34,591 bases of DNA from Alphaproteobacteria bacterium. Its GTDB lineage: Bacteria > Pseudomonadota > Alphaproteobacteria > SMXS01. The position numbers were made by a program, and so were the translations under genes. This document shows, in pieces, positions 17,980-34,550 of this stretch (position 1 is its first letter; every line of letters begins with the position of its first letter). The notes under the pieces were generated by a model. The model saw only the letters and a list, made by a program, of their open reading frames with translations, ran no database searches and was not told the origin of the DNA. Location of the stretch: NCBI GenBank assembly GCA_030836535.1, contig JAURPT010000081.1, positions 1-34,591 of the forward strand. The letters are read 5' to 3'.

Positions 17980-18146
17980 AGCTGGTGGGACCGCCTTCGC
18001 CGTACGCAGTCGTTATTCCTCTGTGGCCTGCTCTCAGCAGGTGGGCGCCGTGTAACAAAGCCAGGACTCCATCAGGGACAGCTCCCTATGAGGATGGTAT
18101 TGGCCCCAGGGAATAGATGTGCGTCGCACGTAGCAGAACCCACCAA
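17980..18146 (-). ncRNA. ssrS: 6S RNA (regulator of RNA polymerase holoenzyme)
   Basis: 6S RNA mimics an open promoter and traps sigma70-RNA polymerase in stationary phase. The 199-nt gap between zapA and the cyclo-ligase gene contains no plausible gene but a long self-complementary RNA. The 5' end TTGGTGGG (18146-18139) pairs with CCCACCAG near 17989-17982 as the closing stem. Internal blocks TTCCCTGGGGC, GGAGTCCTGGCTTTG and GGCGCCCACCTG resemble alphaproteobacterial 6S. Flanking genes are those of 6S in many proteobacteria. Ends are estimates from the closing stem and the upstream promoter. A covariance model search would confirm it. Confidence 0.82.
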
Positions 18147-31446: not shown

Positions 31447-31665
31447 ATGAAGAACGATATTCATCCCGACTATCACACCATCACGGTGAAGATGACTGAC
31501 GGCACAAGCTTTGAAACGCGCACAACCTGGGGCGCCGAGGGTGACGTTATGACCCTTGATATCGACCCGGCTTCCCACCCGGCCTGGACCGGTGGCTTAA
31601 AGCGTGTTCTGGACACCGGCCAGGTGGCCAAGTTCAACAAGCGTTTTGCTCAGTTCGACATCTAG
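31447..31665 (+). CDS. rpmE: 50S ribosomal protein L31 (cysteine-free type)
   Basis: This 72-residue protein ([20 protein letters not shown] onward, with SHPAWTG in the second half) matches alphaproteobacterial L31. It contains no cysteine, so it is the zinc-independent (C-minus) form, which does not need the zinc-ribbon. It is transcribed on its own, with a strong promoter upstream and a strong terminator at 31703-31728. Divergent from the ABC exporter gene. Confidence 0.97.
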
Positions 31666-31702
31666 TCGGCAATACGCATATCGGCTGGAAACAGCCTGGA
31701 AG

Positions 31703-31728
31703 TGGCGCCTGCGGGCGCCATTTTTTTT
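31703..31728 (+). terminator. Rho-independent terminator of rpmE
   Basis: TGGCGCC-TGCG-GGCGCCA (7-bp perfect stem, 4-nt loop, 31703-31720) followed directly by eight Ts (31721-31728). It lies 37 nt after the rpmE stop. Very strong signal. Confidence 0.93.
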
Positions 31729-31753
31729 GGCTGGTCACCGCCATAAGCCCCCT

Positions 31754-31781
31754 CTTGAAACAGCGCGGAAACTCCCCATCT
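31754..31781 (+). promoter_or_regulatory. RpoH (sigma32) heat-shock promoter of hsp20
   Basis: CTTGAAA (31754-31760), 13 nt, CCCCATCT (31774-31781). This is an essentially perfect match to the heat-shock consensus CTTGAAA-N11-15-CCCCATNT. Transcription would begin near 31788-31790, at the first hairpin of the downstream thermometer. It lies just after the rpmE terminator. Confidence 0.9.
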
Positions 31782-31788
31782 AATGTCT

Positions 31789-31870
31789 GCAGGTGCCATA
31801 ATGGGCCTGCATGACCATAGGCCCGACCGATTGGTGGGCCCCTACTTATTGCTCAAGAGGAGAATAAGCC
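31789..31870 (+). promoter_or_regulatory. ROSE-like RNA thermometer in the hsp20 leader
   Basis: The 82-nt leader folds into three consecutive hairpins. Hairpin 1 is GCAGG...CCTGC with inner CCA/TGG (31789-31810), and hairpin 2 is GGCCC...GGGCC with inner ACC/GGT (31820-31840). Hairpin 3 is CTTATT-G-CTC paired to GAG-AATAAG with a 5-nt loop (31845-31868). The third stem has a single bulged G and buries the AGGAG ribosome site two bases before the ATG. A UUGCU-type strand with an unpaired G opposite the Shine-Dalgarno is the hallmark of ROSE elements, which melt on heating. Known ROSE elements sit before small heat-shock genes of alphaproteobacteria. Confidence 0.85.
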
Positions 31871-32341
31871 ATGCGTATGTTCGATACGTCCCCCCTGTTG
31901 CGGTCCAGTGTTGGATTCGACAATTTAAACCGCCTGTTCGACACGGCCACGCGCCAGGACACAGGCAACGGTTACCCGCCCTATAACATCGAAAAACTCA
32001 GTGACGACGCCTATCGCATTTCCATGGCCGTCGCTGGCTTCCGCGAAAGCGAATTGGATGTCGTCGTTCATGATGGTGTGCTGGAGGTCTCCGGCAAGGC
32101 CAACGCAGACAATGACGACACTGAAGACAAGGAAACCTCTGTCTACCTGCATCGCGGCATTGCCAAGCGCGCCTTTACCCGTCGCTTTACATTGGCCGAC
32201 ACGATCAAGGTGACCGGCGCAGGCCTGGAAGATGGCCTGCTGCATGTCGACCTGGTGCGCGAAATCCCGGAAGAACGCAAACCGCGCCAGATCAACATTT
32301 CTTCTGGCACCCAGAGGGTCATTGACCACGAAGCAGCCTAA
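31871..32341 (+). CDS. Small heat-shock protein Hsp20 (IbpA type)
   Basis: This 156-residue ATP-independent holdase forms oligomers that keep denatured proteins in a refoldable state. The N-terminus MRMFDTSPLLRSSVGFDNLNRLFD matches bacterial IbpA/HspH-type proteins. The alpha-crystallin domain (about 36-135) includes YPPYNIEKLSDDAYRISMAVAGF, LEVSGKANADN and the HRGIAKRAFTRRFTLAD segment. The leader carries a heat-shock promoter and a ROSE-like element, so expression should be heat-induced at both transcription and translation. It ends in its own terminator. Confidence 0.96.
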   Translation: MRMFDTSPLLRSSVGFDNLNRLFDTATRQDTGNGYPPYNIEKLSDDAYRISMAVAGFRESELDVVVHDGVLEVSGKANADNDDTEDKETSVYLHRGIAKRAFTRRFTLADTIKVTGAGLEDGLLHVDLVREIPEERKPRQINISSGTQRVIDHEAA

Positions 32342-32364
32342 ACGTTCGCTGCCAAACATGTTCA

Positions 32365-32394
32365 AGCCCCCTGCTCTAGGGCGGGGGGCTTTTT
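32365..32394 (+). terminator. Rho-independent terminator of hsp20
   Basis: AGCCCCC pairs with GGGGGCT (7 bp, 32365-32371 with 32384-32390), followed by TTTTATTT. It lies 24 nt after the hsp20 stop. Confidence 0.88.
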
Positions 32395-32415
32395 ATTTGG
32401 GCGTCGCAGATGCTG

Positions 32416-32456
32416 AAAAAAGGTTGGGCCACCCGTCTTTCGACAGAGTGGCCCAA
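32416..32456 (-). terminator. Rho-independent terminator of the DUF1192 transcript
   Basis: On the minus strand a perfect 9-bp stem TTGGGCCAC/GTGGCCCAA (32456-32448 with 32432-32424) encloses a small GTC-GAAA-GAC hairpin. It is followed by CC and then six Ts (32421-32416). It lies 80 nt beyond the DUF1192 stop, leaving a structured 3' region in between. Confidence 0.8.
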
Positions 32457-32535
32457 GTTTGGGGAGTTCAGATCGATCGTGGGAGGGTTGCGATCAAACT
32501 GTGCAAACCATAGCGCTCTCAATCTGAACAGAAGA

Positions 32536-33911: not shown

Positions 33912-34550
33912 ATGGCTTTACCATTGATGCCAAAAGCAACCGCCGTATGGCTGGTCGACAACACCATGTTGTCGTTTGAACAGATCGGTACATTTTGTGG
34001 CCTGCACACGCTGGAAGTACAGGGCATTGCAGATGGCGAGATCGCACAGAATATTACCGGGCTGGACCCCATTGTCGGCAAACAGCTGACAGCAGAAGAA
34101 ATCAAGCGCTGCGAAGATGACCCGTCTGCACAGCTAGAGCTTCTCGAAAGCAACCTGCCTGCCCCGAAGAAACGCCGTGGCCCACGCTATACGCCAGTCT
34201 CCAAGCGCCAGGACCGCCCGGACGCCATTGCCTGGCTGGTGCGCAATCATGAAGAACTGACGGACGCGCAGATCTCTAAGCTGGTCAGCACAACCAAGCC
34301 GACCATTGTCGCCATTCGTGAACGTACCCACTGGAACTATAGCAATCTCAAGCCGACCGACCCGGTTACCCTGGGCCTGTGCACACAGATTGAACTGGAT
34401 GAAGCTATCCAGAAAGCAGCTGATCGCGTTGCCAAAGAGCGCGAAAAGGCTGGCCTGCCACCCTTGGGTGAAGAAGAAGAGACAAATGAGTCTGATCTGG
34501 GCACCGTAACACAGCCCGATATCTGGTCGACACCTGCCTCAGAAGACTAG
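33912..34550 (+). CDS. trcR: Cell cycle transcriptional regulator TrcR (former DUF1013)
   Basis: This 212-residue cytoplasmic protein begins MALPLMPKATAVWLVDNTMLSFEQIG and contains two helix-turn-helix-like segments: LSFEQIGTFCGLHTLEVQGIADGE (about 20-43) and LTDAQISKLVSTTKPTIVAIRE (about 115-136). The latter is followed by RTHWNYSNLKPTDPVTLGLCTQ. The family is conserved and nearly universal in alphaproteobacteria and is annotated as TrcR, a cell-cycle regulator. The tail is acidic (LGEEEETNESD). AGGAGG gives a strong ribosome site and fixes the start. The call rests on recognition of the family and is not otherwise testable here. Confidence 0.88.
   Translation: MALPLMPKATAVWLVDNTMLSFEQIGTFCGLHTLEVQGIADGEIAQNITGLDPIVGKQLTAEEIKRCEDDPSAQLELLESNLPAPKKRRGPRYTPVSKRQDRPDAIAWLVRNHEELTDAQISKLVSTTKPTIVAIRERTHWNYSNLKPTDPVTLGLCTQIELDEAIQKAADRVAKEREKAGLPPLGEEEETNESDLGTVTQPDIWSTPASED

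Follow-up and report, generated by a model that had tools for sequence, protein, structure and literature searches.

The question raised by this locus is whether heat acts on the small heat-shock gene hsp20 at one level or at two, i.e., on transcription through a σ32 (RpoH) promoter and on translation through an RNA thermometer in the leader. The earlier note proposed both, and each of its coordinates proves correct. The sequence evidence supports the ROSE plus RpoH interpretation of the leader, and we consider that hsp20 is very probably under serial dual heat control, in which an RpoH promoter is followed by a ROSE-type thermometer. The features concerned are collected in Table 1. Coordinates refer to the window, i.e., the whole stretch of 34,591 nucleotides that was analyzed.

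Table 1. Features of the hsp20 locus, in window coordinates.
Feature	Position	Strand	Evidence
Intrinsic-terminator-like hairpin and T-run, GGCGCCTGCGGGCGCC-ATTTTTTTT	31700–31728	+	Lies 3′ of bL31 and separates bL31 from hsp20
−35 element CTTGAAA, σ32 (RpoH)-type promoter	31754–31760	+	Sequence; conserved in orthologues
−10 element CCCCATCT, σ32-type promoter	31774–31781	+	Sequence; conserved in orthologues
Predicted transcription start	31787–31789	+	Inferred from promoter spacing, 6–8 nt past the −10 element; base of hairpin I
Hairpin I (core 31789–31811)	31785–31815	+	Fold; both-sided changes in 7 of 8 pairs, 24 leaders
Hairpin II, GGCCC[G]ACC-GAUU-GGUGGGCC, with its own bulged G31825	31820–31840	+	Fold; both-sided changes in 6 of 8 pairs
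Hairpin III, putative ROSE-type thermosensing hairpin	31845–31868	+	Fold; covariation; ROSE motif in 86 of 88 orthologues
ROSE motif UUGCU (anti-Shine-Dalgarno), bulged G at 31851	31849–31853	+	Sequence; orthologues; hairpin search
Shine-Dalgarno AGGAG	31858–31862	+	G31860, A31861 and G31862 paired; A31858 and G31859 in the loop
hsp20, small heat-shock protein gene, 156 aa	31871–32341	+	HSP20 PF00011, 67 bits, E 1.8e-18; ORF
Intrinsic terminator after hsp20	32364–32391	+	12-pair stem plus T-run

The hsp20 gene, which starts with an ATG, is a stand-alone unit between a terminator-like hairpin and a terminator. Its upstream neighbor encodes bL31 (PF01197). The terminator-like hairpin that follows bL31 is absent from the output of the consensus terminator scan. 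Sub-threshold Rfam matches to PhrS, suhB and similar families at 31700–31736 were attributed to this terminator hairpin of the upstream gene and rejected as sRNA candidates. Further along the window, a gene for a TrcR cell-cycle regulator family protein (PF06242) lies at 33912–34550 on the plus strand.

The leader is about 83 nt long. When the RNA from 31780 to 31890 is folded, the structure has a free energy of −41.9 kcal/mol (z = −3.5; none of 200 shuffles as stable) and contains the three hairpins that the earlier note had placed downstream of the promoter. The last stem is as the note described it, CUUAUU[G31851]CUC-AAGAG-GAGAAUAAG, with nine base pairs and a single bulged G facing the Shine-Dalgarno sequence. 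The UUGCU motif faces 31860–31864, and G31851 has an unpaired probability of 0.99 at 37 °C. The pairs around the bulge are Watson-Crick throughout, without the U·G or U·U pairs of some ROSE stems. The claim that the stem covers AGGAG stands in part: three of the five bases are paired, and the first two lie in the loop. A hairpin of this strict type, defined as UYGCU, a bulged G, a 3′ strand resembling a Shine-Dalgarno sequence and at least 8 pairs in total, occurs once in the window and 2 times per 565 kb of non-leader DNA. Hairpin II has a bulge as well, and nearly all of the aligned relatives retain it in the G31825 column.

Orthologous leaders (n = 88) were selected solely by Hsp20 protein similarity. 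U(U/C)GCU is found 10–40 nt 5′ of the start codon in 86 of the 88, versus 6% of 35-nt stretches from the same loci. The strict bulged-G hairpin is present in 74 of the 86 leaders that bear the motif, versus an expected 0.0002 per search window. These orthologues settle the assignment of the hsp20 leader to ROSE. Two near-complete genomes of the same family (G003 and G008) lack this hsp20 orthologue and have the second hsp20 only.

Covariation is strong in all three hairpins. In an alignment of 24 leaders, both-sided changes are seen in 17 of 25 pairs, a number that none of 500 shuffles equals, and 93.8% of cells are paired, versus 36–52% when the partners are slid by 1–3 columns. The closest eight relatives taken alone give weaker covariation in pair count, which 122 of 500 shuffles reach; thus, the covariation support rests on the wider set.

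At the Rfam gathering score no ROSE element is found in the window, where the only match is 6S RNA (RF00013, 53 bits, above gathering; 17984–18142, minus strand). The earlier note had proposed a search with the Rfam ROSE models. Once the thresholds are relaxed, RF00435 can be aligned over its full length to 31789–31877, with UUGCUC and the Shine-Dalgarno sequence set in the ROSE register; the score is 23 bits, where gathering requires 45. Related loci behave similarly: in 20 of them, the RF00435 matches listed score 27–40 bits, all below gathering. Among the control leaders, three of four from rhizobia score 52–70 bits with RF00435, the S. meliloti pSymB leader being absent from the matches listed; ROSE_2 gives 100 bits for E. 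coli ibpA. By the strict Rfam criterion the leader is below threshold; by functional class, it displays each sequence and structure feature of ROSE that was tested. These include two to four hairpins (here three), the 3′-most of them holding the Shine-Dalgarno sequence, in front of a small heat-shock gene (PF00011).

An RNA model, R1, was built from the orthologous leaders. It recovers most of the held-out orthologous leaders, and in the genome of the window the hsp20 leader is the sole match, at 69 bits. Searched across the class, R1 has matches at E ≤ 0.05 in 98 of 289 genomes. For all 29 of the best non-self matches examined, the 3′ end is an hsp20 start codon; R1 includes the ATG itself, and three of the 29 come from genomes used in building the model. 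No evidence for a real, gene-specific leader is stronger than this class-wide recovery, made without protein information. Four rhizobial hsp20 leaders score 35–39 bits, and for three of them the Rfam ROSE score also exceeds gathering. R1 finds the E. coli ibpA ROSE weakly, at 25 bits.

Does hairpin III respond to temperature? Nearest-neighbor folding gives it a free energy of about −5.1 kcal/mol at 37 °C, rising to −4.0 at 42 °C. Computed without the bulged G, the values are −8.9 and −7.7, a stabilization of about 3.8 kcal/mol at 37 °C. The earlier note had expected a fold that opens between about 30 and 42 °C, and the calculation did not return one: in ViennaRNA, the mean unpaired probability of 31860–31863 is about 0.05 at 42 °C, so that hairpin III stays closed. 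E. coli ibpA is a ROSE thermometer established by prior experimental work, and the same calculation keeps it closed at 42 °C too. Because this control also stays closed, the folding result is non-discriminating and neither supports nor refutes a thermometer.

A rival reading is that a σ32 promoter precedes conserved hairpins serving mRNA stability or the binding of a protein or sRNA, with little or no temperature-dependent translation. In its favor, the computed leader fold barely shifts from 20 to 45 °C, and the very stable hairpins I and II match hairpin III in conservation. A stability element has no need of pairing with the Shine-Dalgarno sequence, however, and here the UYGCU of known ROSE thermometers lies opposite that sequence in 86 of 88 genes. 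R1, moreover, recovers leaders that Rfam itself calls ROSE. We regard this reading as quite improbable.

As to transcription, the near-perfect σ32 promoter that the note had read as CTTGAAA-N13-CCCCATCT is confirmed at its coordinates, 31754–31781, with a spacer of 13 nt. Scored against the CTTGAA / CCCATNT consensus, it matches 12 of 12 bases with 15 nt between the elements, which is σ32 spacing. At this stringency, the 2.68-Mb genome contains the pattern 7 times, versus 3 for the reversed pattern, and among these 7 the hsp20 promoter alone has CCCCATNT. The genome has two rpoH genes, both above the curated cut-off. Among orthologous upstream regions, 77% have a σ32-type promoter that agrees with the consensus at 10 or more of 12 bases, versus 0.9% of background stretches, and in most orthologues 15–16 nt separate CTTGAA from CCCATNT. 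That conservation tells against a ROSE-type thermometer transcribed chiefly from a housekeeping promoter, in which case control would not be dual; no σ70-type site was found in 31640–32460 either, and this arrangement is very improbable. That base composition produced the hairpin by chance, given that any Shine-Dalgarno sequence can find a partial complement nearby, is a negligible prospect, already refuted by covariation, with z = −3.5, compensatory changes in all three helices and an R1 genome search that lands on hsp20 start codons.

The note had also predicted that the transcript starts at the base of hairpin I, so that promoter and RNA fit each other exactly. The first half is borne out insofar as the predicted start falls there, and both the RF00435 alignment, from 31789, and the R1 match, from 31787, begin near it. 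The fit is less than exact: a start at 31787–31789 would put the lowest three computed pairs of hairpin I (31785–31787) outside the transcript or at its extreme end.

The proposed RpoH–ROSE mechanism would run as follows. Heat would raise RpoH activity and hence transcription from the promoter, and a transcript starting at about 31788 would fold into the three hairpins. At growth temperature, UUGCUC (31849–31854) is predicted to pair with the Shine-Dalgarno region and so limit ribosome entry. The bulged G31851 would weaken hairpin III, which may then open on heat shock and allow translation. Hairpins I and II would be stable scaffolds that aid the folding of hairpin III.

Dual control by RpoH and ROSE, and its mechanism, are already known, and the hsp20 leader very probably adds one more case. 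Described ROSE elements have two to four hairpins with small heat-shock genes downstream, and U(U/C)GCU paired to the Shine-Dalgarno sequence in the 3′ hairpin with a predicted bulged G (PMC3669281, PMC4166951, PMC11342760). More than 40 candidates had been predicted in alpha- and gammaproteobacteria (PMC3669281, PMC4166951). In S. meliloti, rpoH-dependent, ROSE-led sHsp genes have been reported (PMC3989490), and for P. putida ibpA dual control by σ32 and ROSE was shown experimentally (PMC3669281). The latter shares with hsp20 a σ32 promoter of the CTTGAA / CNCCATAT type and a U(U/C)GCU hairpin over the Shine-Dalgarno sequence (PMC3669281), whereas its leader has two hairpins in 61–62 nt, versus three in about 83 nt here.

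The alphaproteobacterial RF00435 ROSE elements (rhizobial hspA and hspAT) likewise combine several hairpins with a bulged G, an adjoining small heat-shock gene and U(U/C)GCU facing the Shine-Dalgarno sequence. Unlike them, the hsp20 leader falls short of the RF00435 gathering score and has a fully Watson-Crick bulge stem; descriptions of ROSE1, the founding element, give it four hairpins. The E. coli ibpA ROSE shares UYGCU and is matched by R1, as noted, but belongs to another Rfam family, the gammaproteobacterial RF01832 (ROSE_2).

The comparison confirms that the arrangement predicted to place small chaperones under RpoH at transcription and ROSE at translation is widely conserved in Alphaproteobacteria, well beyond the rhizobia. 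When its gathering score is applied, the Rfam ROSE model fails to detect the hsp20 leader and its scored relatives outside the rhizobia, and an improved covariance model would annotate such leaders. A further proposal, which we think unlikely, makes the three-hairpin leader found in this clade a class-wide, divergent ROSE subfamily below the current Rfam thresholds, with hairpin II contributing to sensing. Instead of being a passive scaffold, the conserved bulged-base hairpin II would then, e.g., melt as a second step or make contact with hairpin III.

Two other genes have leaders with some of these elements. The clpB leader of the same genome (C14, L003:1500–1600), and that of a second genome of the genus (L142), has a σ32-like promoter, CTCTTGTGTTGC...ACACCATAT. 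Next comes a hairpin that bears UYGCU, a bulged G and AAGG (GCCUGGUUGCUUAAUGAAGGAUCAGGC), with compensatory changes in the second genome. An Rfam ROSE match upstream of clpB (27.9 bits), which partly overlaps the clpB promoter, was rejected as a second ROSE, as the hairpin, about 35–50 nt before the start codon, leaves the clpB Shine-Dalgarno sequence uncovered. The clpB leaders of the family's other genera are without the UYGCU hairpin.

The second hsp20 (L012, L013, L015, L017–L019 and L021) has a conserved leader of its own, with σ32-like promoters in most family members. The copy in the present genome (L002) looks different from this family leader. The last hairpin of the family leader, GCC-CG-CUUC / GAAG-GA-GGC, lies over AAGGAGG and is ROSE-like, with CCGCU replacing UYGCU.
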